The position numbers and the translations under genes are program-made. Positions 27,752 to 58,189 of a DNA stretch of 64,000 nt are shown piece by piece. Below the pieces are notes generated by a model. That model was not told where the DNA came from. It worked only from the letters and a program-made list of their open reading frames with translations, and ran no database searches. The number at the start of each line of letters is the position of its first letter. Position 1 is the first letter of the stretch. The DNA is from Siphonodentalium dalli (taxonomy: Eukaryota; Mollusca; Scaphopoda; Gadilida; Siphonodentaliidae): assembly GCA_032622095.1 (NCBI GenBank), contig CP136063.1, positions 122,284,723 through 122,348,722 of the forward strand. The letters are read 5' to 3'.

Positions 27752-30700
27752 GAAAGTGTCAATGACACTGTATAGCTCAACTTGGAAAGGGAATAATTTA
27801 ATGTATTACAGTCAATGGAGTGATTAGGAATGTGGAAAGTTGATTGTCTAATACTAGTTTATAGACATGAAGAGAAAAGTAAAATCCAAGATGGCTGCTG
27901 GCGGCCATGTTTTCGGCCGAATGACCCCAAAATGAGTTGTTCCCATCGAACTGTCATCATTAACATCCATGACAAATTTTATGACGATCAGACTAAAGGT
28001 ACGACCTGTAGCCCATGCTAAAGAATTTAGTCATACAAAGAGTAAAATCCAAGATGGCTGCTGGCGGCCATGTATTTTGACCGAATGACCCCAAAATGAC
28101 TCGTTCCCATCTACATTCCAATTTCAACAGCCATGACAAATTTTATGATGATCAGACTAAAGGTACGACATGTAGCCCGTGCTAAAGGATTTAGTCATAC
28201 AAAGAGTAAAATCCAAGATGGCTGCTGGCGGCCATGTTTTTTGGCCGAATTACCCCAAAATGACTCGTTCCCATCTACATGTCATTATTAACATTCTTGA
28301 CAAATTTTATGATGATCAGACTAAAAGTAGGACCTGTAGCCCGTGCTAAAGGATTTAGTCATACAAAGAGTAAAATCCAAGATGGCTGCTGGCGACCATC
28401 TTTTTTGGCCGATTGACCCCAAAATTACTCGTTCCCATCTACATGTCATTGTTAATATCCATGACAAATTTTATGATGATCAGACTAAAGGTACGACCTG
28501 CAGCCCGTGCTAAAGAATTTAGTCATACAAAGAGTAAAATTCAAGATGGCTGCTGGCAGCCATGTTTTTTGGCCGAATGACCCCAAAATTACTCGTTCCC
28601 ATTTACGTGTCAATATTATCATCCATGACAAACTTCATGATGATCAGACGAACAGTACGACCTGTGGCCCGTGCTAATGGATTAAATTTTGAAATCCATG
28701 ATGGCCACTGGCGGCCATGTTTTTTGTCCGAATAACCCCAAAATGACTCGTTCCCATCTACATTCCAATTTCAACAGCCATGACAAATTTTATGATGATC
28801 AGACTAAAGGTACGACATGTAGCCCGTGCTAAAGGATTTAGTCATACAAAGAGCAAAATCCAAGATGGCTGCTGGCGGCCATGTTATTTGACCGAATGAC
28901 CCCAAAATGACTCGTTCCCATCTACATGTCATTATTAACATTCTTGACAAATTTTATGATGATCAGACTAAAAGTAGGACCTGTAGCCCGTGCTAAAGGA
29001 TTTAGTCATACAAAGAGTAAAATCCAAGATGGCTGCTGGTGACTTTTTTTTTTGGCCGAATGACCCCAAAATAACTCGTTCCCATCTACATGTCATTGAT
29101 AATATCCATGATAAATTTTATGATGATCAGACTAAAAGTACGACCTGCAGCCCGTGCTAAAGAATTTAGTCATACAAAGAGTAAAATTCAAGATGGCTGC
29201 TGGTGGCCATGTTTTTTGGCCGAATGACCCCAAAATTACTCGTTTCCCATCTACATGTCAATATTATCATCCATGACAAATTTCATGATGATCAGACAAA
29301 CAGTACGACCTGTGGCCCGTGCTAATGGATTAAATTTTGAAATCCAAGATGGCCGCTTGCGGCCATGTTTTTTGTCCAAATGACCCCAAAATGACTCGTT
29401 CCCATCTACATTCCAATTTCAACAGCCATTACAAATTTTATGATGATCAGACTAAAGGTACGACCTGTAGCCCGTGCTAAAGGATTTAGTCATACAAAGA
29501 GTAAAATCCAAGATGGCTGCTGGTGGCCATGTTTTTTTGGCCGAATGACCCCAAAATGACTCGTTCCCATCTACATGTCATTATTAACATTCTTGACAAA
29601 TTTTATGATGAGACTAAAAGTAGGACCTGTAGCCCGTGCTAAAGGATTTAGTCATACAAAGAGAAAAATCCAAGATGGCTGCTGGCGGCCATGTTTTTTG
29701 GCCAAATGACCCCAAAATTACTCGTTCCCATGTACATGTCAATATTATCATCCATGACAAATTTCATGATGATCAGACGAACAGTACGACCTGTGGCCCG
29801 TGCTAATGGATTAAATTTTGAAATCCAAGATGGCTGGCCATGTTTTTTGTCCGAATGACCCCAAAATGACTCGTTCCCATCTACATTCCAATTTCAACAG
29901 CCATGACAAATTTCATGATGATCAGACTAAAGGTACGACCTGTAGCCCGTGCTAAAGGATTTAGTCATACAAAGAGTAAAATCCAAGATGGCTGCTGGTG
30001 GCCATGTTTTTTGGCCGAATGACCCCAAAATTACTCGTTCCCATCTACATATCAATATTATCATCCATGACAAATTTCATGATGATCAGACGAACAGTAC
30101 GACCTGTGGCCTGTGTTAATGGATTAAATTTTGAAATCCAAGATGGCCGCTGGCGGCCATGTTTTTTTGCCGAATGACCCCAAAATGACTCGTTCCCATC
30201 TACATTCCAATTTCAACAGCCATGATAAATTTCATGATGATCAGACTAAAGGTACGACCTGTATCCCGTGCTAAAGGATTTAGTCATACAAAGAGTAAAA
30301 TCCAAGATGGCTGCTGGTGGCCATGTTTTTTGGCCGAATGACCCCAAAATTACTCGTTCCCATCTACATGTCAATATTATCATCCATGACAAATTTCATG
30401 ATGATCAGACGAACAGTACGACCTGTGGCCCGTGCTAATGGATTAAATTTTGAAATCCAAAATGGCCGCTGGCAACCATGTTTTTTGTCCGAATGACCCC
30501 AAAATGACTTGTTCCCATCTACATTCCAATTTCAACAGCCATAACAAATTTCATGATGATCAGACTAAAGGTACGACCTGTATCCCGTGCTAGTCATACA
30601 AAGAGTAAAATCCAAATGGCTGCTGGCGGCCATGTTTTTTTGCCGAATGACCCCAAAATGACTCGTTCCCATCTACATGTCATTGTTAACATCCATGAAA

Positions 30701-31172
30701 AAATTTATCATAATCCGACCAAAGGTACGACCTGTAGGCTGTGCCAAAGAATTTAGTCATGCAAAGAGTAAAATCTAAGATGGCTGCCGGTGGCCATGTT
30801 TTTTGGCCGAACAACCCCAAAATTACTCGTTCCCGTCTACATGTCAATATTAACATTCATGACAAATTTCATGATGATCAGACGAACAGTACGACCTGTA
30901 GCCCGTGCTAATGGATTGAATATTGAAATCCAAGATGGCCACTGGCGGCCATGTTTTTTTCCTGAATGAACCCAAAATGACTCGTTCCCATCTACATGTC
31001 AATGTCAACAGCCATGACAAATTTTATAATGATCCGACCAAAGGTACGACCTGTAGCCTGTGCTAAAGGAAATTGTTGACGCATCACACACGGACACACA
31101 CACACACGCACACACGGACGACGGATACCAAGCCATGGCAATAGCTCAAACTTTACAAGGTAAAGTTGAGCT
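27752..31172. repeat. Core-repeat element II: satellite-like array of about 20 units
   Basis: Head: AGTGTCAATGACACTG and TATAGCTCAACTTGG (27757-27785). About 20 units of 155-170 bp follow from 27868 to 31075. Each has CCAAGATGGCTGCTGGCGGC (or GATGGCCGCTGG), GAATGACCCCAAAAT, ACTCGTTCCCATCTACAT and TTATGATGATCAGACTAAAG words. A variant unit (GAACAGTACGACCTG, GATTAAATTTTGAAATCC) recurs every two to four units, at about 28683, 29331, 29813, 30125, 30440 and 30908. Then CA/GGAC-type simple repeat (31080-31125) and a tail hairpin TAGCTCAAACTTTAC / GTAAAGTTGAGCTA (31141-31172). The tail inverts the head. The open frames here are repeat artefacts. Confidence 0.85.
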
Positions 31173-35046: not shown

Positions 35047-37215
35047 TTCAAGGGCAGATTAAACTTGAATCGATCCCATCTAGTGCCAAGAAAGGAGTTA
35101 TGGTTCCCCTTTTTAAAGGAGGTACGAAATCCAGATATAAATTCGATAACTATAGAGCCATCACAATCCTCCCTATCGTTTACAAGATCTTCGAAAGATT
35201 ACTACTCAACAGACTTGAAATTGCCATGTAAATGCGCTACAACACGGTTTCCAGAAGGGCATGAGTTCCATCTCGACTTCGTACCTTTTGCAAGAGTGTA
35301 TCTCCTATACAAAACAGCAATCAAGCAAATTATATTCATGTTTCCTTGACACTCAAAAAGCTTTTGATACAGGGTCTGAAAGGTAAAGCTTGGCGTGTAT
35401 TCTCAAACGTCTTAACAGGAATTTCGTGCTGTGTTAGATACAACGGAGTGTTCTTAAACTGGTTCGACGTCAAGCAGGGCACCAGGCAAGGTAGCATAAT
35501 TTCTCCGCTCATGTTATATATTGATGAACTCATAGCCCTGCTCTCATCTTCCGGGAATGGTCTGTCCATCTCGTCTCTGAACTGCTCGTCCCCAACTCAG
35601 GCAGACGACATGGCTCTCCTTTCACTTACTAGTCCCGGACTGCAGTCTATGTGTGATATCTGTACCGACTACAGCAGAAAATGGAGGTTCAAATATAATC
35701 CGACAAAATCTGTCTGCATTGTATTTAATGAATTCCACACAGATTATAACCGTGCTATCCGCTCATGGTCTCTATGCGACCACCGTATTCAAGAATCCGA
35801 CCACGCAATTAATTTGGGCATCCCAATCCACAAGTTCTCTCAACAAACTGTAATCATAGAAAACATATGCAATAAATTGCTGTCCACATATTTCATGTTA
35901 TCAAATGCTGGGTTATATGCTGGTGGCATAACCCCGTCCAGCTGCGTTAAAATCTATAAATCGGTCGTTCTTCCCAGAGCACTTTATGGGTCAGAACTTC
36001 TTTTCAACCTATCACAGTCAAATATATTACAGCTTGAGAAAGCACATCGTTGTTGCGTGAAGAATATCCAGGATTTACCCACAAGAGTTCGTACCCTACT
36101 TGCAGAGGGTCTTTGTGGCATCACTTCTCTGTACAACGTCATCGAACGACGCAAACTGTCATTTATTGCTACGCTATGTAGGACTAGTATTGAGAAAACA
36201 TCCGCTAGGGTGTTCATTCTCAGACTTAATGAATCCATTTTATTGGGTGAACAGAGTCATCTTATCGAGAACTTCCACCAAACGTTGTTAAAGTACAATC
36301 TACTCATCTCGTGCACTTCTCGAATACCGGTCAATTTCCAACTAAATTTCTTTGGAAGAGATTGATTCGCGATAACGTTGACACTGTTCACTTCATGAAA
36401 TGGGAATATGACGTTCAAGCAGATAATGCTCTTTCGATATTCAAATTAATCCACCCTCGCCTGGAGACGAGCCTTCTTTGGTTAGCCTGCAAAAAGTACC
36501 CTAGAGATAAAGCTTCCTTCCTAACTGTAGGAAGACTCGTCTCTCGTACCACATACGAAGATGGAGGGAAATGTCTACTTTGTAGATCCGAGTATCTCAA
36601 TCCTGTGTGGCATGTCATCTTGTATTGCCCTACCTTCAACAGTATCCGTAACACATTCTGGTATGACTTCATAACACATTTTGGCATTCCATGTTATTTA
36701 AAGCTTGAGGCTCTAAACTCGGACAAATTACTTGCTGTCTTCCTGAGTTCCCTGCCAATTGATTTGTCTGATGAAGTAGCGGATATTTCTGAATTTACAC
36801 GCACATTTGTGTTGCATACAGCAAAACTTTGGAGGCTATATGAATCATGCTCTCAAACGCCTTGTCGACATTGAGCCGTTATCTGAATGAACGATTTAAT
36901 GATATTTGTTATGCAAATCGTGTATCTCTTGATTTATTCACACATTATTATGCATTTATATATTATTCGTATACAATGTATCGCCTGTCCATACAGTCAA
37001 AGGCGCCCCCTCGTTATTGCATTTAAAATGATAATTTTGCAGCAACGTGTTCGTGATGAGGCATTTTTCCATGGTCGTCGATTTTTCAATATTCGGCCTC
37101 AACCTGATTCCGGCTTTCGATTTCTCTGTATATAACACGCGGTAATTACCATCTTTGGACTCCGTGAGCAAATTCTTTTCATATCGATTCAATTTGTTGT
37201 CCAATAAACGCTATT
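35047..37215 (+). pseudogene. Frameshifted CR1/Jockey-like LINE: reverse transcriptase, C-terminal zinc-knuckle region and 3' UTR
   Basis: Reading through several frames gives the ordered blocks of a non-LTR reverse transcriptase: GVMVPLFKGGTK and FDNYRAITILPIVYKIFERL (35095-35205), then GFQKGMSS and FLDTQKAFDT in another frame (35245-35370), then NWFDVKQGTRQGSIISPLM (35458-35514) and the catalytic block QADDMALLS (35600-35626). After that come thumb sequences such as VVLPRALYGSELLF. Near 36310 the frame shifts, and 36311-36874 carries a C-terminal cysteine/histidine motif, C-L-L-C ... H ... C (about 36571-36630). A stop at 36872, an AT-rich 3' UTR and an AATAAA at 37203 follow. The protein copies LINE RNA at the target site. 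This copy has at least one internal stop (35229) and three frameshifts, and the endonuclease is missing. The 339-codon frame at 35346-36365 is the longest in the window. Confidence 0.85.
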
Positions 37216-37496
37216 GTACAGCTTCTTATCCCATTGACACTTTGGTTCCTTTGACGGTATCAACGGTCTGGTATGAAACTCTTAGTCATTGATTTACAGA
37301 TGGAAAACTAACCCCAATAGTCCGGATTTTTTGGCTGACTATATATTCTAATTCAAGGAAACATCATTCGTGAAAGACTGTGGGGTTGATGTCTATAATG
37401 GTGGCTCAATGTCTAACGGTTTCCATGTGAGTTGATCGGAGTTGTGTATGACGTCACCTTGATGACTTCATTTGACATAATGTTGCATATAAATTA
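37216..37496. other. Short spacer before the Helitron array
   Basis: No repeat or coding signal seen. The last base, A at 37496, is the left half of the A^T target of the array. Confidence 0.5.
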
Positions 37497-38613
37497 CTAG
37501 CAGGTTAGCCCGCCACTGGCGGCAATCGTCAGAAACATGACAATTTTTTAATTGTTTAATTAATTTTTTAATTGAATTTTTTGTTTTTCAATGAGTTAAT
37601 TGTGCCTTTTTAATTTAATTTTTTGTTTTTCAATTTTAACCGATTTTTTTGGTTTTTTTTAATTTAATTTTTTGTTTTTCAATTTGACCAGATTTGACCT
37701 TGAATTGATCATTTTCAAGGTCAAGGTCAGGTCGGGGTCACAATTTAACCCGTCCATGACACTTCCCGTAGGTAGCAAGTTTGAGCTCAATCGGTTCGAG
37801 TCTATAAAGGACACACACATATATATGACACTTCCCGTAGGTAGCAAAGTTTGAGCTCAATCGGCATTCCCTGGAATTTCCCAGAAGATATTCATGGGGA
37901 GGTCAAGTGACCAATTTTGAAATTTGCTGGTCGCATTCGTCTGTAGGTCTGAGGAATTCTCGGCTAGATATTGTTACCAACATGACATATTTAAATTAAT
38001 CCCGCCATGCACCCTATCACCAACGCGACGTAATTTTGGTACCATGTGTTGCGTTCTAAAAATAGGTCGATTTCAGTGGATTCGTAGATGACAAATATGA
38101 GTGCGACAGAGAATATTGTTTGATCGAAAGCATTTGAATTAATACGTCACAAGACTCGCCTTGATGCTGGCTAATAGATATTTGTCCCTGCTAGGTGATG
38201 GGAATGTGAATTAAAATTGCCGTGGGGATGCCGTGAGGGTCTAATCCGATGAAAATGTCCCCGTTCCTAGGAAGCGAGTTCCAGATAACGTAAACAAACG
38301 CCGTCCCCCGTTCAGTATGCGAAAGCCAAAGGGAATAAAGAGCGTTAACCGGTTAACGAACCCAAATATGGAATATCTTTATCAACGACACTGCAGATAG
38401 GAACACTCTTTAACTATCAACGCTATTAACCCCGAAGTGCCATTTTTGTGACTGAGAGTGGAGAATGGGTGCTCTGAGCTTCTCCAAAACGCCGCGACGA
38501 CCATTCCCGTGGGTTTTTACCCTTATATAGGAAGTTTGGTCTCGATGGGTCCAGCCGTTTTCGATTCTATAAAGTACACACATATATACGGAGTTCTCAA
38601 AATATATAGTAGA
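37497..38613 (-). mobile_element. Helitron array unit H1
   Basis: On the minus strand the 3' end is the hairpin CCGCCAGTGGCGG, spacer GCTAACCTG and CTAG. The 5' end is TCTACTATATATTTTGAG. The right end joins H2 exactly (GA then CTAG). The interior has GCTCAATCGGTTCGAGTC words and the CATTCCTGG word of H4-H6. No Rep/Hel coding. Confidence 0.85.
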
Positions 38614-39421
38614 CTAGCAGGTTAGCCCGCCACCGGCGGCTTGTCCGAAACATGACATTTTTATATCTATTTTTTAAATTGTTAGCTCCACGCGTTTCAA
38701 TAAGTAAAATTTGTACCCGGTAGCTCCACCAGTTTTCGAGATCTGGTCTGTGCATGAAAATTTGTACCCGGCGCAAGATACATTCACATGCCAAATTTCA
38801 AGTCGATAGCTCCACCCGTTTCCGAGATCTCGTCTGCGCATGCGCTGCACGGGCGTCGCACGGGCTCGGCGACCAGATAAAATTTGTACCCGGCGCAAGA
38901 TACATTCACATAGCAAATTTCAAGTCGATAGCTCCAACCGTTTCCGAGATTTCATCTGCGCATGGCTGCACGGGCGTCGCACGGGCTCGGCGACCCGATA
39001 AAATTTGTACCCGGCGCAAGATACATTCACATAGCAAATTTCAAGTCGATAGCTCCACCCGTTTCCGAGATCTCGTCTGCGCATGCGCTGCACGGGCGTC
39101 GCACGGGCTCGCCAATACGACAACGACCACCGCCTGGTCAAACTACACACACGTACCAAGTTTCGTCCCGATCGGTCGAGAATCGTAGATTTGTATGAAG
39201 TACAACACACACACAACCATAAATATATAAGAGAGATATGTAAATTAGATAGATTGTATTAAAATATATAGGAGAGATATGTAAATGATCTACACACCAT
39301 TACTGGTGTTTGTCAAAGTTTAATGGGGTATGTCAATACTCGTTCACGATCATATCATTGAGGTCCGGAGGGTGTGGGCTATCTCTCGAATACAAGGAGT
39401 TCTCAAAATATATAGAAGAGA
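38614..39421 (-). mobile_element. Helitron array unit H2 with 122-bp core repeats
   Basis: 3' hairpin CCGCCGGTGGCGG then GCTAACCTG and CTAG. The interior at 38720-39130 is about three and a half units of a roughly 122-bp core, with the words TTCAAGTCGATAGCTCCA, TCTGCGCATGCGC and AAGATACATTCACATA. Open frames across it arise because 122 is not a multiple of three, so every frame stays similar. Confidence 0.85.
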
Positions 39422-40737
39422 CTAGCAGGTTAGCCCGCCACCGGCGGCTTGTCCGAAACATGAGATTTTTTAAGTATTTTTTTTTAATTTTTAGCTCCAC
39501 GCGTTTCAATAAGAAAAATTTGTACCCGGTAGCTCCACCCGTTTCCGAGATCTGGTCTGCGCATGCGCGAAGCTGGCGTCGCACGGACTCGGCGACCCGA
39601 TAAAATTTGTACCCGGCGCAAGATACATTCACATAGCAAATTTCAAGTCGATAGCTCCACCCGTTTCCGAGATCTCGTCTGCGCATGCGCTGCACGGGCG
39701 TCGCACGTGCTCGGCGACCCGATAAAATTTGTACCCGGCGCAAGATACATTCACAAACCAAATTTCAAGTCGATAGCTCCACCCGTTTCCGATATCTCGT
39801 CTGCGCATGCGCTGCACGGGCGTCGCACGGGCTCGCCAATACGACAGCGACGACCACCTGGTCAAACTACACTCACGTACCAAGTTTCGTCCCGATCGGT
39901 CGAGGTGTTGGTATCTGATGCAAAAGACGAAATTGTGAGTGTTGGTCAATAGTCCCCGCCGTGAACCTCATCGTCGCAAAGAGCGGACAGTCAATTAACC
40001 CCGTTGTGAACCTCAATCACCAACGCGACGTAAACATGTGTTGCGTTCTAAAAATAGGAAAGCACTTTCTGTCTGCATAATTCTGCAGATGCTAACAACG
40101 TTGCTCCCCGTAGGTAGCAATATCGTTGTTGTTGATATTTACGGCTTGGGGGCTATTTTCTTATTTAGCAAGTTTGAGCTCAATCGGTTCGAGTCTATAA
40201 AGGACACACTCATATATATGACACTTCCCGTGGGTAGCAAGTTTGAGCTCAATCGGCATTCCCTGGAATTTCCCGTAGATTGGCAGATTCCAGTAGCTAT
40301 ATCTGGGGAGAAATCTGATGCTATATTCGTGATTATCTGGGATGATTTCGGTATATAACTATATACTGTAAAAACAAAGCGCGCCATCCGTGCTCGCAGG
40401 GTTGGTCAGAAACAAATGTTTTTTTAATTTAATGTATGTTCCGTATATCTCTCTGCAGATGCAAATAACGTTGAATGGCAAACAGACGCTCTTTATAGAG
40501 ATGCGTCAAAAACAAACGCTCATTAAATAATCACTTGATTAACCCACGCCGTGCCTTTGCGGTGATTTGAGATTGGAGAACGGGTGCTCTGAGCTTTTCT
40601 AAACTGCGACCACGGTCGTGTCGGTGGGATTTGACACTTCCATAGGAAGTTTGAGCTCAATCTTTACACGCGTTTTGGATTCTATGAAGTACATACATAC
40701 ATATATATATACGAAGTCTCAAAATATATAGTATAGA
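39422..40737 (-). mobile_element. Helitron array unit H3, chimeric
   Basis: The first half (to about 39900) is like H2, with the GGCGGCTTGTCCGAAACAT start and three 122-bp core units. From about 40020 it is like H4/H5 (GATATTTACGGCTTGGGGGC, AAACGCTCATTAAATAATC, GAAGTCTCAAAATATATAGT). Ends are intact GA|CTAG junctions. Confidence 0.8.
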
Positions 40738-41752
40738 CTAGCAGGTTAGCCCGCCACTGGCGGCATTCGTCCCATGGCTTTGTTTCAGAAACATGACATT
40801 TTTGTAATTATTTTGTTTTTATTTATTTTTGTTTTTTTATTTTTGAATATGAATTTAATGTTTTTTAAATTTAATATATTTTGTTTCTGAATTGTTTTTT
40901 TATTGTAAATTGTTTTATTTTATTTTTTTTTTTCTGGCGGAAAAATTTACCCGTAGAAATCCCCCCCTTCCTAGGAACGACAGATAATTTAACGCATTCT
41001 TTGTTTCGCAAAATCTCTCTACGATAACATTGCATTGAATTTAAAACAAACGCTTCCTGTCGGGAAATCTGTCTTCGGGTCGTTGTTGTTGGCATCACGG
41101 CTCCCCGAAAACTCTCACATTGCCGAAAACGTGTATTTAGTAAAATCGTTGTTGTTGATATTTACGGCTTGGGGGCTATTTTCTTATTTAGCAAGTTTGA
41201 GCTCAATCGGTTAGAGTCTATAAAGGACACACTCATATATATGACACTTCCCGTAGGTAGCAAGTTTGAGCTCAATCGGCATTCCCTGCAATTTCCCGTA
41301 GATTGGCAGATTCCAGTAGCTTTATAACGGTATATCTGGGGAGATATCTGATGCTATATTCGTGATTATCTGGGATGATTTCGGTAAATACCGAACTGTA
41401 AAAACAAAGCGCGCCATCCGTGCTCGCAGGGAATAAATTTTGAGCGATAACGTTTGCGTTCTCGTATAACTCTGCAGATGCGAATAACGTTGAATGGGAA
41501 ACAGACGCTCTTTATAGAGATGCGTCAAAAACAAACGCTCATTAAATAATCACTTGATTAACCCCCGCCGTGCCTTTGCGGTGATTTGAGATTGGAGAAC
41601 GGGTGCTCTGAGCTTCTCTAAACCGCGACCACGGTCGTGTCGGTGGGATTTGACACTTACATAGGAAGTTTGATCTCAATCTGTACACGCGTTTTGGATT
41701 CTATGAAGTACACACACACACATATACGAAGTCTCAAAATATATAGTATAGA
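40738..41752 (-). mobile_element. Helitron array unit H4
   Basis: Standard termini. The interior is nearly the same as H5 except that H5 carries 1.1 kb of extra sequence (two TTAA MITEs), so H4 shows the empty site. Non-coding. Confidence 0.85.
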
Positions 41753-41949
41753 CTAGCAGGTTAGCCCGCCACTGGCGGCATTCGTCCCATGGCTTTGTTT
41801 CAGAAACATGACATTTTTGTAATTATTTTGTTTTTATTTATTTTTGTTTTTTATTTTTGAATATGAATTTAATGTTTTTTAAATTTAATATATTTTGTTT
41901 CTGAATTGTTTTTTTATTGTTAATTTTTTTTTATTTTAAATTGTTTTAA

Positions 41950-42469
41950 AGGTGGATTATCTCTTTGTAAACATGTATTATATAGTTACCGGGGTATAAA
42001 ATATTAGATTTGAATCGAAGACTCCTGTCCGGAAATGCTTCTATCGATTAATATTAATTTTATTTCGAATATTTTCTGGTCTAAAAAGGTGTGTTTGTTC
42101 AGCTAACGAACAATAGTGGTTACTGTTAACAGAGACCAGAAATTATATTGTGCAATTTTGTCACAAATAAACGTTAATTATACTCACTATCGCTTATATC
42201 TGTGGAACAAAACAGTACAAACAACCAATCTGTGACATTTGACATTCGTTGCGTAGCCGTAGGAACAGCCCAGTGCTCTATATCGCAATACGGTCTCATC
42301 CGAATGGTCGGTTCTAAAAATAGTAACATAAATGGGCCCGATTTAATATTCGAAATAAAATCAATATTAATTGATAGAAGCTTTTCCGGACATAGGTCTT
42401 CAGTTCATATCTATTATTTTATACCCACGCAACTATTTAAAATTTGTTATTTAAAGAGATAATCCATCT
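41950..42469. mobile_element. TTAA MITE, family A, fullest copy
   Basis: Flanked by TTAA (41946-41949, 42470-42473). Termini AGGTGGATTATCTCTTT and, inverted, AGATGGATTATCTCTTT. The arms are about 110 bp, with CCGGGGTATAAAATA, GAATCGAAGACTCCTGTCC and GCTTCTATCGATTAATATT inverted on the other side. No coding. piggyBac relation inferred from TTAA. Confidence 0.8.
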
Positions 42470-42473
42470 TTAA

Positions 42474-43071
42474 AGGGGTACTGTACCCAAGATGTTGTTG
42501 TTGGTTTCTATAATCCCCGAGTCGGAGAATAAGGTAACAACTTTTCCATTTTTTGAAAGTCTGTTGAGTACGAAGTACATGTATTGTTACGGATGGCAAA
42601 TTTACCGGAATGCAAAAATACAAATTGTCGTTGTCGAGTAATTTTTGTACAGTTTTCAACCAAATGAATCAAATAAACATTATATTATATGCTTAGTAGT
42701 CCCATATACTCATTTAAGTTAGTGTATGGTCACTAGTCAATGAGTGGCTTGGGTTTTCTCCCCGTATAAGCATAATGTTTCAAAAGATCGTGTGTGCAAT
42801 TGTTTTATTAATCCAGTATCCCTCAATTATAATTTGATTACGTTTTGTACACGGAAATTCCAATTTTAAGAGACGCCATTTTATGGCTGGAGCCATAAAA
42901 TCAATTTATATTAAATTATTAACTTTTAAATTATTAAATTTTAAGATAGCCTATTAACCTGAGCGTTTACAGAATACATCTTCGACTCAAATTACTTATA
43001 TTTCTATATAGTATCGATACTAGATCGTTGTTATCACCGGGAATTTATTGAAAATGGCGTACAGTACCCCT
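42474..43071. mobile_element. TTAA MITE, family B, copy 1
   Basis: Termini AGGGGTACTGTAC and GTACAGTACCCCT, a perfect 13-bp inverted pair, with TTAA at 42470-42473 and 43072-43075. The left TTAA is shared with the family A element. The same element lies in opposite orientation at 57291-57876 (shared words TTCTCCGACTCGG, GACAACGACAATTTGTAT). No coding. Confidence 0.85.
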
Positions 43072-43851
43072 TTAATTAATTTTTTTGTTTCTGGCGGAAA
43101 AATTTACCCGTAGAAATCCCCCCTTCCTAGGAACGACAGACAACGCATTCTTTGTTTCGTGAAATCTCTCTACGATAACATTGCATTGAATTTAAAACAA
43201 ACGCTTCCCGTCGGGAAATCTGTCTTCGGGTCGTTGTTGTTGGCATCACGGCTCCCCGAAAACTCTCACATTGCCGAAAACGTGTATTTAGTAATATCGT
43301 TGTTGTTGATATTTACGGCTTGGGGGCTATTTTCTTATTTAGCAAGTTTGAGCTCAATCGGTTAGAGTCTATAAAGGACACACTCATATATATGACACTT
43401 CCCGTAGGTAGCAAGTTTGAGCTCAATCGGCATTCCCTGGAATTTCCCGTAGATTGGCAGATTCTAGTAGCTTTATAACGAAGGTATATACTGTAAAAAC
43501 AAAGCGCGCCATCCGTGCTCGCAGGGAATAAATTTTGAGCGATAACGTTTGCGTTCCCGTATAACTCTGCAGATGCGAATAACGTTGAATGGGAAACAGA
43601 CGCTCTTTATAGAGATGCGTCAAAAACAAACGCTCATTAAATAATCACTTGATTAACCCCCGCCGTGCCTTTGCGGTGATTTGAGATTGGAGAACGGGTG
43701 CTCTGAGCTTCTCTAAACCGCGACCACGGTCGTGTCGGTGGGATTTTACACTTACATACGAAATTTGATCTCAATCTGTACACGCGTTTTGGATTCTATG
43801 AAGTACACACACACACACATATATACGAAGTCTCAAAATATATAGTATAGA

Positions 43852-44656
43852 CTAGCAGGTTAGCCCGCCACTGGCGGTAATCGTCAGAAATATGACAATT
43901 TTTTATTTTTTTAATTAATTTTTTTATTTAATTTTTTTTTTCAATGAGTTAATTGTGCCTTTTTAATTTAATTTTTTTAATTAATTTTTGTAATTAATTT
44001 AATTTAATTTATTTTTTTTCAATGAGTTAATTGTGCCTTTTTAATTTACTGGCTTTTTTAATTAATTTTTGTAATTAATTTTTTAATTTAAATTTTTTTT
44101 TTCAATTTGACCCGATTTGACCTTGAATTGATCATTTTCAAGGTCAAGGTCAGGTCACAATTTAACCCGTCCATAACACTTCCCGTAGGTAGCAAGTTTG
44201 AGCTCAATCGGTTTGAGTCTATAAAGGATACACACATATATATCAATTGTGGGTACCTGTTTCAAGGTGAAGATCACCTCGGGCGGAAAAACTGACCCGA
44301 TGAAAATCTCCCCCATTCCTAGGAAGCCCCAAGTACGTCACACAACACGCTCATGTCTGAATACAGTCTTACACGCACACGCCTAGACCCATACGTAAGA
44401 ATCACATTACACACATACGCTCTTTATCAATGACACTGCGGATACGAACGCTCTTTAACTATCAACGCGATTAACCCCACAGTGCCGTTTTTTGTGACTG
44501 GGTGTGGAGAATGGATGCTGGGAGCTTCTCCAAAACGCCGTGGATTTTTACCCTTAGATAGGAAGTTTGGTCTCAATCGGTACAGTCGTTTTCGAGTCTA
44601 TAGAGGACAAATATACACATATATTTATATATGTAGTTCTCAAAATATATGGTAGA
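43852..44656 (-). mobile_element. Helitron array unit H6
   Basis: Standard hairpin end and TCTACCATATATTTTGAG start on the minus strand. The left part resembles H1 and the right part resembles the solitary Helitron at 10763 (CCTCGGGCGGAAAAACTGAC, ACACGCTCATGTCTG). Confidence 0.85.
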
Positions 44657-45440
44657 CTAGCAGGTTAGCCCGCCACTGGCGGCATTCGTCCCATGACTTT
44701 GTTCGAAAAAGCAATTGCAACAGGTTCCGAGACACTTGTGCTGCATTTGCACCAAATTTCGTTTGGGCTCAATCGGTTGACCCGTCCCGAGTTGACCATT
44801 TTGCTTCCATAGAATTTTCATGGGACGAATGCGGCCAGTGGCGTAATATTTAAATTTTAACATAGGATTTTGCATTCAAATAGATTTATGTCGATAAAAC
44901 TCTTATTTTTCCAAATTTCAAGCTGAGACTTCGTCTGTCTGCGTGTAATACTTATATGTTCTTAAAATGACACAGTCCAACACGTAATTATGTTTCAGAT
45001 GGAAGAAATTTAATTTTTTCGAAGCTAAATTTTAACATAGGATTTCCCATTAAAATTGATTTATGTCGATAAAACTCTTATTTTTCAAAATTTTAAGCTG
45101 AGACTTGGTGTGTCTGTGTGTAATACTTACATATTCTTAAAATGACAGAGTCCAACACGTAATTATGTTTTTGATGAAAGAAATTAAATTTTTTCGTTGC
45201 TAAATTCGAGCGATAACGTTGCGTTGAATTGTAAACAAACGCTCTTTTATAGCGACGCATCATATACAAACGCTCATTAAATTATCACGTGATTAACCCC
45301 AGCAGTGCCGTTTTTTGTGACAGAGTGGAGAACGGGTGCTCTGAGCTTCTCCAAAATGCCGCGACGACAATTCCCGTGGGTTTTTACCCTTAGATGGGAA
45401 GTTTGAGCCCAATCGGTCCAGCCGTTTTCGAGAGGACAAA

Positions 45441-46116
45441 TCTCATATATATTTTGAAGACCTCTGTCTGTATGTATGTTTGTCTGTCTGTCTGTCTGTC
45501 ATTTATACAAATCTACGATTCTCGACCGATCGGGACGAAACTTGGTAAGTGTGTGCAGTTTGACCGGGCGGTGAACGTTGTCGTATTGGCGAGCCCGTGC
45601 GGCGCCCGCTTCGCGCATGCGCAGACGAGATCTCGGAAACGGGTGCAGCTATCGACTTGAAATTTGCTATGTGAATGTATCTTGCCCCGGATACGAATTT
45701 TATCGGGTCGCCGAGCCCGTGCGACGCCAGCTTCGCGCATGCGCAGACCAGATCTCGGAAACGGGTAGAGCTATCGACTTGAAATTTGCTATGTGAATGT
45801 ATCTTGCCCCGGATACGAATTTTATCGGGTCGCCGAGCCCGTGCGACGCCAGCTTCGCGCATGCGCAGACGAGATCTCGAAAACGGGTGGAGCTATCGAC
45901 TTGAAATTTGCTATGTGAATGTATCTTGCCCCGGATACGAATTTTATCGGGTCGCCGAGCCCGTACGACGCCAGCTTCGCGCATGCGCAGACCAGATCTC
46001 GGAAACGGGTAGAGCTATCGACTTGAAATTTGGTTTTTGAATACCAGGCTGGGTAGAGCTATCGACTTGAAATTTGGTTTTTGAATAGCCCGGACAACGT
46101 CGGGCTCATCGGCTAG
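45441..46116 (+). mobile_element. Nested Helitron P1
   Basis: Plus-strand orientation: 5' TCTCATATATATTTTGAAG, then (GTCT)n, about four 122-bp core units with GCGCATGCGC, 3' hairpin CCCGGACAACGTCGGG, spacer and CTAG. Preceded by A. Joined directly to P2. Confidence 0.85.
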
Positions 46117-46770
46117 TCTCTTATAAATTTTGATACAATCTGTCTGTCTGTTTGTCCTTTATACAAATCTACGATTCTCCACCGATCGGGACTAAACTTG
46201 GTACGTGTGTGTAGTTTGACCAGGCAGTGGTCGTTGTCGTATTGGCGAGCCCGTGCGATGCCCGTGCAGCGCATGCGCAGACGAGATCTCGGAAACGGGT
46301 GGAGCTATCGACTTGAAATTTGCTATGTGAATGTATCTTGCCCCGGATACGAATTTTATCGGGTCGCCGAGCCCGTGCGACGCCAGCTTCGCGCATGCGC
46401 AGATGAGATCTCGGAAACAGGTGGAGCTATCGACTTGAAATTTGCTATGTGAATGTATCTTTCCCCGGATACGAATTTTATCGGGTCGCCGAGCCCGTGC
46501 GATGCCAGCTTCGCGCATGCGCAGACCAGATCTCGGAAACGGGTGGAGCTATCGACTTGAAATTTGGTATGTGAATGTATCTTGCCCCGGATACGAATTT
46601 TATCGGGTCGCCGAGCCCGTGCGATGCCAGCTTCGCGCATGCGCAGACCAGATCTCGGAAAAGGGTAGAGCTATCGACTTGAAATTTGGTTTTTGAATAG
46701 CGCTGGGTAGAGCTATCGACTTGAAATTTGGTTTTTGAATAGCCCGGACAACGTCGGGCTCATCGGCTAG
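46117..46770 (+). mobile_element. Nested Helitron P2
   Basis: 5' TCTCTTATAAATTTTGATAC directly after the CTAG of P1. About four 122-bp core units. 3' hairpin CCCGGACAACGTCGGG then CTCATCGG and CTAG. Very close to P1. Confidence 0.85.
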
Positions 46771-47558
46771 TCTATTATATATTTTGGAAGATCTGTTTGT
46801 TTGTGTGTGTGTGTGTAATCGCGATGAACTCGAAAACGGCCAACCCGATTTCGATGAAACTTGGTATGTGGGGGTATTTTCGGCTGGGGGGTGACATAGG
46901 CCTATTGATTTTCAGATCCGAGGTCAAATTTTCACGTGCCGAGATCAAATCTGTTTTTACGCTGTGTTACGGGACTTTCATTTGAGTTTGGTGCTTACAA
47001 ATCGATTCGAAACAGCGCGAATAATAAAATGCCAGTCATAATAATGACACTGTGAGAATCTTTCATGTTTCCTCTTTCCAACGATATATAATGCGTATGT
47101 ATCCGTTTTAGTTATCTGCCTCAATTATCAAGAAGAAGTGGTACTATCTTCCATCAGGATAAAAACAATGCGTAACTTCTATGACGTCGTTAGAGGTTAT
47201 AACGTTAGATCACGTTAATGCTTAACCGGCCGATGCATTTGACTGTTTCAGACGTCTTGGCGATATCTCGGGCACCGATGGTAATTTATCTTTACGTTGA
47301 AACTTGATAATTAATGAGTGTGTGTATATGAGGCGCGTTTATATACTTGAGTGGAAATCAAATCGGGTTAAACTGGCGGATTTTTACGGACGAAATTTGA
47401 TGCATAGGGTATCTCGGTATCCGCTGGGCCGATTTCCCGGTATCCGCTGGGCCGATTTCCACCATTTTTGGGGTGTTGGTGTTTGACCCCACCTGACCTT
47501 GAACTACAAAATGGTCAATTCAAGGTCAAAGCCCGGACGAAGTCGGGTCACCTTCTAG
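46771..47558 (+). mobile_element. Nested Helitron P3, different subfamily
   Basis: 5' TCTATTATATATTTTGG. The interior lacks the 122-bp core. The 3' hairpin is CCCGGACGAAGTCGGG, followed by TCACCTT and CTAG, then T at 47559. Same termini class as the solitary Helitron at 10763-11326. No coding. Confidence 0.8.
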
Positions 47559-47599
47559 TATATATATATATTTACAGAAGTCTCAAAATATATAGGAGA

Positions 47600-48185
47600 C
47601 TAGCAGGTTAGCCCGCCACTGGCGGCAATCGTCAGAAACATGACGTCCAACACGTAATTATGTTTTAGATGGAAGAAATTAAAAAAATTCTATGCTAATT
47701 TTAACACAGGATTTCCCATTAAAATCGATATATGTCGATAAAACTCTTATTTTTCAAACTTTTAAGCTGAGACTTGGTATGTCTGTGTGTAATACTTACA
47801 TATTCTTAAAATGACAGAGTCCAATACGTAATTATGTTTTTGATGAAAGAAATAAAAAATTTCGATGCTATATTTCGAGCGATAACGTTGCGTTGAATTG
47901 TAAACAAACGCTCTTTTATAGCGACGCGGCATATACAAACGCTCATTAAATTATCACGTGATTAACCCCCGCAGTGACGTTTTTGGTGATTGGGAGTGGA
48001 GAATGAGTGCTCAGAGCTTCTCCAAAACGCCGCGACGATGATTCCCGTGGGTTTTTACCCTTAGATGGGAAGTTTGAGCTCAATCGAGCCAGCCGTTTTC
48101 GATTCTATAGAGGACAAATATACACATATACACATATATATATATATACACATATATTTACGTAGTTCTCAAAATATATAGGAGA
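47600..48185 (-). mobile_element. Helitron array unit H8
   Basis: Hairpin CCGCCAGTGGCGG end. The interior resembles H7 but with one copy of the duplicated segment. The 5' end TCTCCTATATATTTTGAG joins H9. Confidence 0.85.
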
Positions 48186-48849
48186 CTAGCCGATGAGCCC
48201 GACGTTGTCCGGGCTATTCAAAAACTAAATTTCAAGTCGATAGCTCTACCCAGCCCAACGTTGTCCGGGCTATTCAAAAACCAAAGTCGATAGCTCTACC
48301 CGTTTCCGAGATCTGGTCTGCGCATGCGCGAAGCTGGCGTCGCACGGGCTCGGCGACCCGATAAAATTCGTATCCGGGGCAAGATACATTCACATACCAA
48401 ATTTCAAGTCGATAGCTCCACCCGTTTCCGAGATCTCGTCTGCGCATGCGCGAAGCTGGCGTCGCACGGGCTCGGCAACCCGATAAAATTCGTATCCGGG
48501 GCAAGATACATTCACATACCAAATTTCAAGTCGATAGCTCCACCCGTTTCCGAGATCTGGTCTGCGCATGCGCGAAGCTGGCGTCGCACAGGCTCGGCGA
48601 CCCGATAAAATTTGTATCCGGGGCAAGATACATTCACATAGAAAATTTCAAGTCGATAGCTCCACCTGTGTCCGAGATCTCGTCTGCGCATGCGCGAAGC
48701 GGGCGCCGCACGGGCTCGTCAATACGACAACGTCAACCGCCTGGTCAAAAGTTTCGTCCCGATCGGTCGAGAATCGTAGATTTGTATAAATGACATACAT
48801 ACAGACATAGACAGACAGACAGACAGAGGTCTTCAAAATATATATGAGA
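48186..48849 (-). mobile_element. Helitron array unit H9 (last unit)
   Basis: The 3' end on the minus strand is CCCGGACAACGTCGGG, CTCATCGG, CTAG. It has about four 122-bp core units, a (GACA)n run and the 5' end TCTCATATATATTTTGAAG. It is the same subfamily as P1 and P2 in opposite orientation. T at 48850 completes the A^T target of the whole array. Confidence 0.85.
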
Positions 48850-49600
48850 TATACACTGATGTTTACTCTTTGTGTGATGCTGTGTGAGGTCGTGTGCATG
48901 GGCGAGGGTCTATAAATGAGGGTGTGTATTTATTTGTGTGTGTGAGGTTGCGTGTGAGGGTAGGTGTGTTCGTGCGCGACTGAATGCTAGGTGAGGGAGT
49001 GCGCGTGTCTGTTTCTATTGTCAAATCTTAGATTCCCATATCTTTGATGAAACTTACATGCATATGTAGTACGTGTCGGTCAGCTGCATCTGCATGCCTG
49101 TCAGCCGTGTTTCTTCCTGTCTGCACGTTTATCTGTCAGCATGCATGTCTGTCTAGATACTTATGTGACTGTCTGCCTGTCTGTCTGTATGTCAATTTCG
49201 CATATATGCTTGTCTATAAAGTCGTCTAGGCCTAGGTGTGTCTGGACGTGTTTACGTGTATGCTTGTGCGCGGCTGGGTGGTTGTATGTGTCTGAGACTC
49301 AGTGTGTGTGCGTGTAACTGTGTGCGTAATCGCTCTTTATATTGTGTTGTCATATTCTTTAAATGTACATATATTCCACTGTCATTTTTGTATTAGATTT
49401 GTTTGTAACTATGTTACTTAAATATAACTCTCCGATAGTGGAGGCAATAAAGGATATATATAAAAGCAAACTTTATTTTGAGCCTTGGTTACGCATTTCC
49501 CAAAATGGCGTCATTTATTTTCCCATGATGGAAACCATGCAATACAGCCATCATTTAAATAGTCAATTACATTACAAAATAAAGGTCAGCTGATCACAGT
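48850..49600. other. TG- and GTCT-rich simple sequence, no gene seen
   Basis: Low-complexity TGTGTG/GTCTGTCT tracts at 48860-49330, then AT-rich DNA. Open frames at 49044-49229 and 49363-49593 have no recognisable similarity. Confidence 0.5.
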
Positions 49601-50954: not shown

Positions 50955-53555
50955 TGCAAAAGCTAAATTTCTAGAATCTAAACTAAATTTGGGACATGAA
51001 TTAAATGAATTATTACCTTCTTTAGCTGAAAAGCATCAAAACAGATCTAAAATCAGATTTTCTAAAGAACTCTCACCTTCAGATAAATGAGTTATCTCCT
51101 GACTCCAGATAATATTTGAGGTCTCTCAAGAGTAAGCTGTCCTGTTGAAAATGTCAAATTACCCAACTTATAAGAGAGAAGTTCAGATTTTTGTTTTCCA
51201 TAAACATCCAAGATTAAAGCTCCAGGTATTGAACACATTCATATAATAACTACTGGTATATCCATGTGATTACGAAAAAGATCACGAAATACATGTAGGT
51301 ACAAGTGAAATAAGAACTTCATAAACTTAAATCAATTGATTCTTTCTTCTTTGCTACATAACCTTATCTCAATAGCTTCAATGTCAGTCGATCCTCAAAA
51401 GACACTAGTTAATTCTAAATGATAAAACAAACGTGATTGGTCTATAACCAAATTCACTCAGTATGTTGTGCTGTGAAGTTTTCAATGTCCAATAACAGAT
51501 GAATATATCCCGTCAAAACTGAACTGAATGACAATGAAAAAATGTAGCATTATACCATATATACACATATCAAAAGTTATCACTGTGGAAGGAACAGGTG
51601 AATATATCCAGCCTAAACCTGGCACATGCAAACTGGCTGCAATCCTCGAACATCACAAGGCGCTTGAACACCATATGAAATAACTTTCAGCCATTAAACT
51701 CACAAAGACAAATGTAGCACCACATCAAATATCAATCAGGAATTTAGCACTTGATATTCATGAACCATTTTCTTGTTTCCAGGAATGGGTCAATCAAGCA
51801 GCAAACATGTGCAGTGCTCAGATGTTAAAGTGCAACTCCCCAACATGTAATGCATTCAATGCCTGTCAATTATCAAAACAGTAGAAAGCAGTCCAATGCT
51901 AGAACAGATATCCCATCAATTTGAAACTGACTAATTTCAAATGAAAGCCAATTTGGAAGCCAAGAAAAGCATTGAGTTCAATCATTTGTCAGAGTAAATC
52001 CAGCTTTAGTCAGGTGTGATGGAGTTCATCAACTAATAGTTTATGTTGCTGCACCTCAAAATCAATAAATCACAGGTCGTCCAGGGAGAGAAACAGCTCA
52101 ATCACTCTATAAATTCCTGTTAGAAAACCCTGGAAGGAAAGTGAGGAGAAAAGATAGATAAAAGTGTCAACAAGATCCCATCCAGTGATCAATAGAGACA
52201 GGAAAACAGAAACGGTGACATCAAGCACTGCTGTAATAATCCCGCAGCAGTGCATTTCTGATCAATCTTTATCTCAGTCAAGTGATTGCTTTCACAATGA
52301 ATGGCTGACTTTTGATTGGCTTACAAAGAGTAAAGTCGGAAATATGATGTTCGGTACAGATTCTATAAATGCTTTAGAACATTCCTATTGAATTGCAAGG
52401 ACTTTCTACAGAAATACTGCAATTATCAACGTATGCATATGATAAATTACCATACATGACCATGCATATAATTTATATCATTGTAAAAAAAATGCTACAT
52501 TGTCATTCCCAACCTAACTTTATTGTTGGTCCCCCATCTCATGTTATTTTATTTAGATAATTAACTTATTTAAATAGTCACTCAAATTTGATGAAATTGG
52601 CAATTTAAAAAAATACTTGATATCTTAAAGTGATGTGAAACACTCCAGTAGGGTGATCAAATATAAGTGGAGAATAATCTTGTTCAAAGTAGTAATTTTT
52701 ACAAATATTATATCCAAATTGACAACACATACTGTCATTCTTATATATTAATTAACTGTAAAGACTCGAAATGATTTTCGTTAGATTATCGTCTATAGAT
52801 GCATCCTGAATCGAGTAGTAAATATTTACAATTGAGCGTAGTTCAGATGATGTTCTCTATGGAGTGGTATGGTCGATTTGCTTCAGATTTTTGGCGCTGC
52901 TTAATAGTAGAATGCTACATTCCTCCAGTTGGCATAGCGCCTGGATACCAACTGATCAGTTTCACGTACCCGAACAAATTAATATTCATCCACTGTGAAC
53001 AGAATTAATTATTTGTAAGCATTTTTGTAGTACTGTACTGTAATTTGAGGCTGAGTGTTATTTATACTGCTAGAAAGTGGGCAACAAACAGCTGGTCACT
53101 TGAAAATAATGGACTGTTTTTATTTTAGATGAACATGATTTTTTCCAATAAGAACTGAGTCAAAATTTTAAAACATAAGCATAATGATTGAATCGAAAAA
53201 GTGAGTAGTTTATTAATATACCGGTTTGTCCCCACATCCTGTTGTAACTAGCAATCTGATTGGCTACAACGCCACGTTTAAATCCCCACTTCCCCCATCA
53301 CCCTTGCAGCAGGGTATATTAAAGAGAACATGCACAAAACATTGGGTGTATATGAGCATGTGAAACATCGGGGTATATGAATGACCCTTGAGCTGACAGT
53401 TTTCACCAATCGTGACGTTACTCTTGCACGCATAGTTTGATGTCACCTGACACCAGAACCGTAGGTCGGCTACTGAATTATTCTTATTGGTGTGAGTTAA
53501 TGGGAGAACCTATGAAAAACACACTTAAATTAAGAAGACATGGCTATTGTTGTAG
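50955..53555. other. No recognisable feature
   Basis: AT-rich DNA with only short open frames (for example 52164-52391, 52799-53008) of unknown or no significance. No repeat structure noticed. Confidence 0.45.
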
Positions 53556-53561
53556 GGAGAA

Positions 53562-53708
53562 ATTTTTTATCTCCGGCAACATCATTGGGTACATGGATAT
53601 TTAATACCTCGATGTCTCTTTTTGAACCCCTTGGCTCTGCCTCGGGGTTCAAAATCGACATCCCGGTATTAAACCTCCATGTACCTCTGATGCTCCTGAA
53701 GATAACAA
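53562..53708. repeat. Palindromic MITE, about 147 bp
   Basis: The two halves are inverted almost throughout: TATCTCCGGCAACATCA against TGATGCTCCTGAAGATA at the ends, and TTTTTGAACCCC against GGGGTTCAAAA beside the centre at about 53634. No coding. Confidence 0.7.
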
Positions 53709-54164
53709 ATAATATACCACCAGCACAGATACATAAATAACTAATGTCGGCTCAAACTCTTCATACCTTCTGATGCCATCTTTGTTCACCCTAATTTGGA
53801 TATGCATGCATATTTTCAGTGTTAAATTGGCTGTATTCAAACAACTTTTTTGTAGTTAAATCATAATGTACTGAAGTTTCTATTTGTGCCATGACGCTGA
53901 AAATTTATCCAGGGTTCAGCAAGGTTAAACACTTTTTTTCATTTTGCATGACACTTGTCATAATTTACACAAATAAAAGCAAAAATAATGTATGTTCTCC
54001 AGTGAAACTATATATATAAAAAAGTAGGATATGTCTGTTAGCAATTTTTCTCCCAGACCCCTGGAACGATTTCAACCAAATTTGGTGTGGTGGCTCCTAT
54101 TCCGGGATCAATTTTGAATTAAATGATTGTGCTGGGAATGTTATATACCTTTTTTAAATATAAA

Positions 54165-55530
54165 TTTTCTTCCTATTTTCATTAAAGATCTAATTAATCT
54201 AAATAAATTTCTACTGAATTTAACAAACATATGACACATAGTTTCCACGTTTCGTTAAATTGACAATTAAGCAGATTGAATTCCCCATCCCAGACTTTCG
54301 ATCTGGGGCAATCTCTGTAAACTTGGTAAAGGACACAAGCATTTGGTTCTGTCAAACAAACAGGTGATATCTAAAATAAGTGAAAATCTTATTCCTGTTT
54401 GCTGCTTTCAATTTTAACAATGGGTACATTTGCCCTCAAACATGAAACATATTCCTTCTCAAAATACTCTCAAATCTAGAAAACTGACGAAGTTATATAA
54501 TCCAATGAACATGATTTGATGTAAACTGATTAGAAAATATGCCTTTAATAATTGAGTGTGTTGTGGTGCTAACACAGCCTTGAGACCTTTTTATGGCTAC
54601 AGGGTTACATGATATATATAACAGGCTTCAATGACAAGAAGTTCTTCTAAATTGAATCGCACACTTGACGATCAATAGGAAACGAAATTGGTCATCCTGT
54701 GACGACCTTCTAATAACGTTACTGTACGATTATCTGTCTGTCAGTCCTGCTGCTAGAAATATTTATGTAATTGTCTTTGAGTGAAAGAAAGCAATGCATT
54801 TTTCTATGAATATTCATGTATCAGAATAAGAGTTAAAGATGTATAATAGTGAATTGCAAATTAACATTTTATGCAGTGGTTTAAATAAACAATTTCAAGT
54901 CTCAGCAGCAAAACAAGAAAATTATTTTAGTTAATTTACATCTCAGCTCATGTCCCTCAAAAAGCAGGCTTTTTTTCAGGAGTTGGGAGTCAATTTCTGG
55001 CATTGATTTCAACAAATGACCTTGACTTCAAAAAATCATTTGACAGTGATCATTTTTTAACTTGACAATCATTTTCTCTATTAAATGTGAATCACGTAGT
55101 AAGGTACAGAAACATACACTCAGATTCACAAGGATACGGAGTCTATCGTATTCCCGCCACCTTTTCATTTCTTGGAAAGCTTGCAGTATTCCCCAGAATT
55201 ACATCACATCACATTACGTTAATAATTTCGGTTGGACTCCTTCTTGTTGCTACTAATAGTGAGTTCTGACGCTATACTGATGAGGAATACCGGGGTTGGG
55301 AAAATGAAAACTCTACGAAAGGTCATCAGACCAACTATTTCACTTCAGGGGTTGATAAAATTTATATATGGGTATGTAGTTTACTCCATACTGGGTACTG
55401 TTACACTTCAATCTGCTCAAATGTCAAGTTAACAAAATGTGGAAACTATGTGTCAAATGTTTGTTAAATTCAGTAGAAATTTACTTAAGATTAATCATGC
55501 TTTTCTATTGATCTTTGAATGAAAATAGGT
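54165..55530. repeat. Inverted arms of about 120 bp, 1.1 kb apart
   Basis: Arms at about 54165-54290 and 55405-55530 share inverted words AAATTTCTACTGAATTTAAC, GACACATAGTTTCCAC and GAGCAGATTGAA. The spacer has short open frames (55062-55269) without recognisable domains. Confidence 0.6.
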
Positions 55531-55929
55531 GAGCAAAGTTGGGGATGAGCATTTTCAAAACAGGCCAATAAATAATATTTGTTTGAGATTGGTTTATATT
55601 TGTTTTAGTTCGGGTTTAAAATTTAAATTGCAATGCCAAAAATTTACAATCAAACAACTGAATCAAAGGGTGTTAACTAAGGTTAATGTGAATGACCAGG
55701 CCTACATGTAGTTTGCAAACTCATTTTGGAAACTCTTCTTGTGAACTCATACAATTCAAATCCGTTAATAATTGTTTGAAATAAACCCGGACTACTTTTC
55801 GTGTGTGCTAATAAAAAGCCAAAAAAATTATAAAAAGGGCCGGCCCGTAACACTGGTGAAAATGTACAGCCGGGCTTAGTTTGCGAACTCATTTCAGAAA
55901 CTCCTCTTCAGAAACTTTTCCTGGGTGCT

Positions 55930-56290
55930 ATAAACACCAAACGAATGTGTCAGTGACACTGTAGCTCAACTTGGGAAGGATTTTTTTTTGCTGAACAATG
56001 AATAGAATGATAAAGAAGAAGGAAAGCCAAAAAGTTACAGTAAAGGTCTTATATTGTGTAGATGAAACTATTTTCATATCAGACCTTTCTTTCACCAATA
56101 ACTATGGGCTACGTACAGGGTGTGCAGATGGAATCAAATTTGAATGTTTCATAAGAATTTCGGAAATAATCGATGGCTCCAATCTAGAGGTCACCCTGAA
56201 AATCCATATGAAGTTTGAAGACGATTGGATGAGGGATATGTGGCATGTAGGTTAATTGTGCCAAAGGATTTAGTCATAAAATTTTATGAG
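55930..56290. repeat. Fragment of core-repeat element II (head and one unit)
   Basis: AATGTGTCAGTGACACTG and TAGCTCAACTTGGG (about 55945-55975) are followed by a diverged unit with GATGGCTCCAATCTAGAGG and CCAAAGGATTTAGTCATA (about 56262). Confidence 0.6.
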
Positions 56291-57265: not shown

Positions 57266-57290
57266 TGTGATCTGGTGATTCGAAAATTAA

Positions 57291-58180: not shown

Positions 58181-58189
58181 GGGGGGGGG

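Follow-up and report, generated by a model that had tools for sequence, protein, structure and literature searches.

Helitron transposons of the scaphopod mollusc Siphonodentalium dalli stand in exact head-to-tail arrays, one of which lies in the window considered here, a stretch of 64,000 nucleotides (C3:122284723-122348722) from a genome of 2,226,750,531 bases (~2.23 Gb) in nine contigs. The array is real, ordinary in this genome and known in kind from other organisms; the footprint and target evidence gathered across the genome bears on how such arrays arise. We observed exact junctions, a locked orientation, a one-sided target motif, TCTA footprints in sampled arrays and a mixture of subfamilies. 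The best reading of these features, to which we assign a probability of roughly 0.6, is oriented self-targeting, in which newcomers land on the 5′ ends of resident Helitrons, accompanied by local duplication. From these patterns we infer two things: the transposase would recognise the 5′ end of a resident, and such landings would have produced the junctions in the window.

The array in the window and its empty host site

Nine minus-strand Helitron units form an 11.4-kb array that runs from 48849 down to 37497 with no spare base between neighbours; all eight internal junctions read CTAG|TC, and the outer bases of the array on the plus strand are A37496 and T48850. The minus-strand 3′ ends (a putative hairpin plus CTAG) have their last bases at 48186, 47600, 44657, 43852, 41753, 40738, 39422, 38614 and 37497, and a 5′ end of the form TCT..TATATATTTTGA directly follows each of the first eight, with the variant TCTACCATATATTTTGA in U4. 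The exact abutment described in the original prediction is thereby borne out, and its count of nine holds for the minus-strand row; the total is twelve, since a further three Helitrons (P1-P3), on the plus strand and likewise in tandem, lie within U3 (47599-44657), flanked by A45440 and T47559. The units and their flanks are as follows:

48186..48849, minus strand: unit U1; 5′ end TCTCATATATATTTTGAAGACC, 3′ end of family B (GTCGGGCTCATCGGCTAG)
47600..48185, minus strand: unit U2; 3′ end of family A (GGCGGGCTAACCTGCTAG)
44657..47599, minus strand: unit U3; 3′ end of family A, split by the nested trio P1-P3
45441..46116, plus strand: nested unit P1; both ends of family B
46117..46770, plus strand: nested unit P2; 3′ end of family B, 95% like P1 over 635 bp
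46771..47558, plus strand: nested unit P3; 3′ end of family C (GTCGGGTCACCTTCTAG)
43852..44656, minus strand: unit U4; 3′ end of family A
41753..43851, minus strand: unit U5; family A, ~97% sibling of U6, with an additional internal insertion of ~1 kb
42066..43082, no strand: insertion in U5 relative to U6; 1,017 bp in one alignment, borders approximate
40738..41752, minus strand: unit U6; family A
39422..40737, minus strand: unit U7; family A, with a 122-bp minisatellite inside
38614..39421, minus strand: unit U8; family A, with a 121/122-bp minisatellite inside
37497..38613, minus strand: unit U9; family A, the 3′-most unit, with CTAG followed by host T
37297..37496, no strand: host flank on the 3′ side of the array; lies in a dispersed repeat, 40 scored matches of which are free of the array
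48850..49049, no strand: host flank on the 5′ side of the array; belongs to the same dispersed repeat

All twelve units start with TCT and finish with CTAG, as expected from the 5′-TC and 3′-CTRR ends of canonical Helitron1, and three families of 3′ end (A, B and C) and several types of 5′ end occur within the array. Insertion at A^T and CTAG ends set these elements apart from Helentrons/HINEs (Helitron2), which insert between T and T and of which subterminal inverted repeats are a feature (PMC4067079, as far as its accessible text goes); the elements are non-autonomous canonical Helitrons. Stems fold in the 3′ ends examined, one from each of families A, B and C, with energies that are unexceptional against shuffled sequences (z -0.97, -1.86 and -0.27). 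Aligning the units, which the original prediction had suggested as a check, confirmed the mixture of subfamilies, full-length siblings being limited to U5 and U6 (aligned blocks of 96.6, 97.8 and 97.4%); other neighbours share partial matches (U2/U3, 91% over 460 bp; U6/U7, 90% over 636 bp; U7/U8, 95% over 376 bp). With U5/U6 as the only full-length siblings, the array is not one replication concatemer.

The host flanks joined across the array match 40 places in the genome at 88-96% identity (40 scored of 104 candidates), 39 over query positions 1-400 and one over 2-400, and since these matches run across the joined flanks, the array sits in a dispersed repeat. Array-free copies of this repeat exist: each of the four matching places that were read lacks the array and any target duplication, the sequence being GTTGCATATA|TATACACTG in three places and GTTGCGTATA|TAAACACTG in one. 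The flanks and these array-free places also uphold the view that the array lies between A37496 and T48850 as a single insertion would, except that AATTA, five additional bases, adjoins the 3′ end of the array in the window copy, so that the insertion site is clean without being base-perfect. AATTA aside, this is a canonical A^T insertion without target duplication. A genome search with one pattern for other Helitrons at this site of the host repeat returned the window only.

Genome-wide junctions and locked orientation

The 18-base family-A 3′ end has 10,907 exact occurrences genome-wide, 3,718 of which (about one-third) are directly followed by TCTN{0,6}TATATATTTTGA and thus form exact head-to-tail junctions, a count that includes local duplications. 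The reversed-pattern control gave 0 genome-wide, which excludes chance, and with thousands of such junctions the window array is ordinary for this genome. Against these 3,718 head-to-tail junctions, 5′ ends of any family stand head-to-head within 30 bp at 42 sites, one of them exactly abutting. Some of the 42 look as if one element had inserted in opposite orientation a few bases into the 5′ end of another, and the orientation lock is accordingly strong but not absolute. The only exactly abutting head-to-head pair among those listed, at C3:55590014-55590047, is a perfect palindrome.

TCTA footprints within arrays

In a second junction class, CTAG|TACTATATATTTTGAGA, the downstream unit lacks TCTA; this class has 1,282 exact copies genome-wide and accounts for 30 of the 100 junctions listed from 5,142 counted. 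An extra TCTA is carried by 982 exact 5′ ends genome-wide, all of one unit type, namely that of the CTAG|TACTATATATTTTGAGA downstream units. For individual arrays, loci (designated by L numbers) were sampled from consecutive 3′-end clusters of C1 between 1.45 and 13.76 Mb, plus one at 19.19 Mb, together with 14 loci with recurring 3′ flanks and four arrays picked for size. Internal junctions of the fetched loci lack TCTA in 29 cases, set against 30 extra TCTA in these loci. An unmatched extra TCTA lies upstream within the same array in 20 of the 29 missing cases, compared with 2/29 in the mirror test, and shuffling reached 20 in 1/5,000 trials within arrays and in 0/5,000 across all arrays. 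The tally skips unparsable 5′ ends and contains noise from host TCTA runs (L021), slippage and copied units, which are not independent. As read from sequence, the pattern is the one expected if a newcomer inserts at TCTA^TAC within the 5′ end of a resident, in which case the upstream unit would be the younger one. Truncated 5′ starts were rejected as the source of TCTA-less junctions, because the missing TCTA are balanced by extras.

The recognised outer 5′ ends in the sampled loci begin with TC, an observation that is weak alone, since the scripts sought TC starts. A few junctions show neither offset 0 nor +4 (L024 at 4863, and L028-L032 at 10184 and 12050, in oriented, joined coordinates), e.g., CTAG|TCCTATATATTTTGAAGACC, and possibly represent other insertion offsets.

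A one-sided target motif

TATAWA starts at +2 to +8 in 30 of 40 distinct host 3′ flanks and in 0/35 5′ flanks read outwards (Fisher p 1e-12 against the 3′ side), with a background of 211/10,287 A^T sites at positions 1-36000 and 51001-64000 of the window, clear of the array. The 3′ flanks comprise 30 distinct ones from 100 listed rows together with those of 21 fetched loci, collapsed by their first 12 bases; repeats and rows leading into an element-like 5′ end are omitted from the set. Three of the 40 (L020 and two flanks with ATATTTTG) may be decayed element ends, and without the two flanks that resemble element 5′ ends in this way the motif occurs in 28/38. The 5′ set draws on 17 of the 22 places that matched a pattern imposing A before TC and using three variable bases where the ends have four, the remainder being repeats or preceded by an element end; a smaller first set, from 13 of the 22 listed rows, gave 0/31. 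In the subset of 18 outer 5′ ends taken from fetched loci, from which L013 (G before TCTATCTATAC) was excluded, the base before TC is A in all 18.

The 5′ ends of the elements themselves carry TATATA at +6 or +8, or, with TCTA^TACTATAT as the starting point, at +4. No TATAWA lies downstream of the three deeper A^T positions of the element 5′ end, and no junctions at these deeper sites appeared among the 100 listed of 5,142 counted. A plain A^T hotspot was rejected, since it predicts both orientations while the observed orientation is locked, and A^T alone explains neither this lock nor the one-sided TATA motif. The proposal that the CTAG|T(C) junction recreates an A^T-like target needs amending, the junction being G^T; a canonical A^T persists either at the outer 5′ end of the array (A|TC) or 4 nt inside the 5′ end of a resident (TCTA^TA). 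Three copies of another dispersed repeat (L036-L038) have a common Helitron 3′ junction and different outer flanks, a matching 5′ flank being seen in L036 and L038 only; this shared junction may reflect repeated targeting or an old Helitron carried by the repeat.

Proposed self-targeting of resident 5′ ends

In the mechanism that we propose, insertion would be aimed, in one orientation, at an A^T a few bases upstream of TATAWA, so that the element 3′ end faces the motif. This target layout is shared by the 5′ end of the elements themselves (A^TC N3-5 TATATA), which the transposase probably also binds and nicks. By mimicking the target, this end would attract newcomers to the resident's first base (offset 0) or to a point 4 nt inside it (TCTA^TACTATAT); the newcomers would almost always take the orientation of the resident. 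Successive landings would build head-to-tail arrays of mixed subfamilies, in which unequal exchange or rolling-circle concatemers would then multiply certain units. More tentatively, at a little under even odds, the left end may be the Helitron's own programmed landing site, a copy of A^T N TATAWA at which the newcomer is joined where the transposase nicks, so that arrays would be dated stacks growing upstream, with TCTA scars recording the order.

Paralogous loci and nearest relatives bear on this order. The single unit of L045 matches the downstream unit of L014 at 645/672 positions and its upstream unit at 574/639, the two loci sharing a 5′ flank (934/982); in this comparison of sequences, the upstream unit of L014 looks added. 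The 3′-most unit of an array tends to have the poorest relatives elsewhere, with a mean percentile of 0.26 (p 0.03) in 7 arrays flagged as closed by a script and of 0.23 (p 0.006) in 10 arrays, including three added by hand (L026, the first array of L053, and L044) where the flag had misread a host flank. Age order from such nearest-relative scores is weak. The L046/L047 pair was set aside for order, its ends being too decayed. L007/L008 and L009/L010 lie 350-410 kb apart on C1, are ~97-99% alike and are possibly unmerged haplotypes or a segmental duplication.

Several observations weigh against self-targeting. The window's own junctions are all at offset 0 and carry no footprint. For nine of the 29 missing TCTA, the fetched sequence contains no partner; the arrays concerned include L033 and L028-L032, with copied units, and L006, L046, L053 and L054, in which a first 5′ end was not recognised. 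L003, L013 and L038 are single units with an extra TCTA and none missing. Nor does the 5′-most unit stand out clearly as the youngest (mean percentile 0.40 in 7 arrays and 0.38 in 10). In quantity, random insertion at TATA-type A^T sites predicts ~5 abutting pairs for 10,907 copies, and ~98 for an assumed 50,000 copies; since these are far too few, the 5′ end must be recognised much better than the average motif, or duplication must contribute, or both. The L014/L045 difference could be recombination loss, and three sites near the 5′ end of L045 match the upstream unit. The single unit of L009 corresponds to the upstream one of the two units in L010, which suggests either a gain of the downstream unit at G^T or its loss through recombination within 20 bp of shared end sequence. 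Between a common upstream and a common downstream unit, L039x and L040-L042 differ by two extra units, which suggests additions at an internal CTAG|TC junction (G^T). None of these three comparisons is decisive, each being readable as recombination loss or exchange between arrays.

Alternative origins of the arrays

Rolling-circle concatemers, formed when 3′ hairpin termination fails or a circle is copied repeatedly and inserted as several units in one event, are unlikely as the general explanation. They would yield the head-to-tail orientation and exact CTAG|TC junctions directly, and in L006 (1540-4914) three units are identical over 1,125 bp each, the near-identity of neighbours that such growth implies. 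Termination bypass has been invoked for bat and silkworm arrays (PMC4067079), and plant and bat arrays have been likened to concatemers of single-stranded viruses (PMC5876387). However, window neighbours other than U5/U6 match in partial blocks, and concatemers alone give no TCTA-less junctions with an extra TCTA upstream. The preference of the original prediction for repeated targeting over a concatemer is therefore favoured by the mixed subfamilies and by the TCTA footprints of other arrays, although L006 shows that concatemer-like or duplication growth also occurs.

Insertion on the 3′ side, whereby the TC of a newcomer joins a resident's CTAG at G^T and reuses the host TATA motif downstream, is likewise improbable. 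L009/L010 agrees with it, L039x versus L040-L042 fits landing after the upstream unit, and a maize pair shows an equal ambiguity of order (PMC2267711). Yet A precedes TC in the 18 outer 5′ ends described above, and the TCTA footprints put newcomers at the 5′ end. Targeting of the CTAG|TC junction, much as originally envisaged, draws some backing from L039x and L040-L042; the A^T reason offered for it needs amending.

Still less probable is an origin in which a few tandem insertions founded the arrays, and unequal crossing-over together with ectopic recombination between arrays did most of the rest. L033 repeats a block of two units (period 2,307), and spacings are periodic at C1:49.03 Mb and at 63.81-63.82 Mb, but recombination creates neither the first junctions between subfamilies nor a one-sided target motif. 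Repeat arrays are prone to misassembly, but an assembly artefact is scarcely credible given one junction rule repeated thousands of times, coherent footprints and array-free copies of the host repeat.

Comparison with known systems

A close precedent is maize AF466202, in which two different Helitrons are joined at CTAG|TC with a G/T junction (PMC2267711); tandem replication is rejected by its authors, who do not decide which element inserted first. The maize case shares the junction of the window array but, in the accessible part of that report, consists of one pair with no footprint that fixes the order. Head-to-tail arrays have been described in Myotis bats, Bombyx, maize and plant centromeres (PMC5876387, PMC4067079, PMC5148889), and distantly related Helitrons directly adjoin in bat and maize (PMC4067079). 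In contrast to the present genome, the available portions of these papers ascribe bat, Bombyx and plant arrays to termination bypass or circles and give no insertion-order footprint or comparable counts. A triple Helitron in Metarhizium acridum (PMC5148889) also has three elements in tandem but is presented in the portion available as a single unresolved case from a different element group. Helraiser, a reconstructed bat Helitron, has TC/CTAG ends, an A^T target, an AT-rich stretch at its left end and an AT-rich preference that is strongest 3′ of the insertion (PMC4778049); unlike the elements described here, it is credited in the accessible text with no discrete TATA motif and no landing on resident ends, and it re-transposes without local clustering. 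No TCTA-type footprint, no resident end serving as an oriented target and no one-sided motif that an element's own end matches were found in the literature searched, which largely excluded subscription papers.

For the maize pair, the origin and order of abutting Helitrons were left open in 2008 (PMC2267711, accessible part); the present genome offers thousands of junctions and, for one junction class, a built-in scar that gives the order. Scar and motif tie the choice of target to the left end of the Helitron itself, and self-targeting could explain satellite-like Helitron arrays without concatemers.

A candidate autonomous partner and other features

A search with the Helitron_like_N profile reported 151 matches (457 candidates, 150 scored) in this genome and none in 14 control genomes. 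One match lies inside the array of L028-L032; the unit that carries it spans ~8.7 kb and has family-B ends resembling those of U1 and P1, its 3′ end differing from family B by one base. This unit encodes an open frame of 1,614 aa, and a scan of 1,368 aa of it detected Helitron_like_N, PIF1 and Pif1_2B_dom. The RepHel transposase hallmark is thus present in one family-B-ended unit; the search was not aimed at families A and C.

The 122-bp minisatellite (121 in one row) recurs at 38757-39111 (U8), 39530-39835 (U7), 45590-46032 (P1), 46246-46688 (P2) and 48284-48722 (U1). By eye, the insertions in U5 (~41950-43080) resemble inverted-repeat elements (AAAGGGGTACTGTAC... and AAAGGTGGATTATCTCTTT...). 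Outside the array, the window contains a lone family-C-like 3′ end (GTCGGGTCACCTGCTAG|T) at 10763-10779 on the minus strand, a 164-bp tandem unit in ~20 copies at 27878-31070, and a 339-aa open frame at 35346-36365 with a weak reverse-transcriptase match under the curated cut-off.

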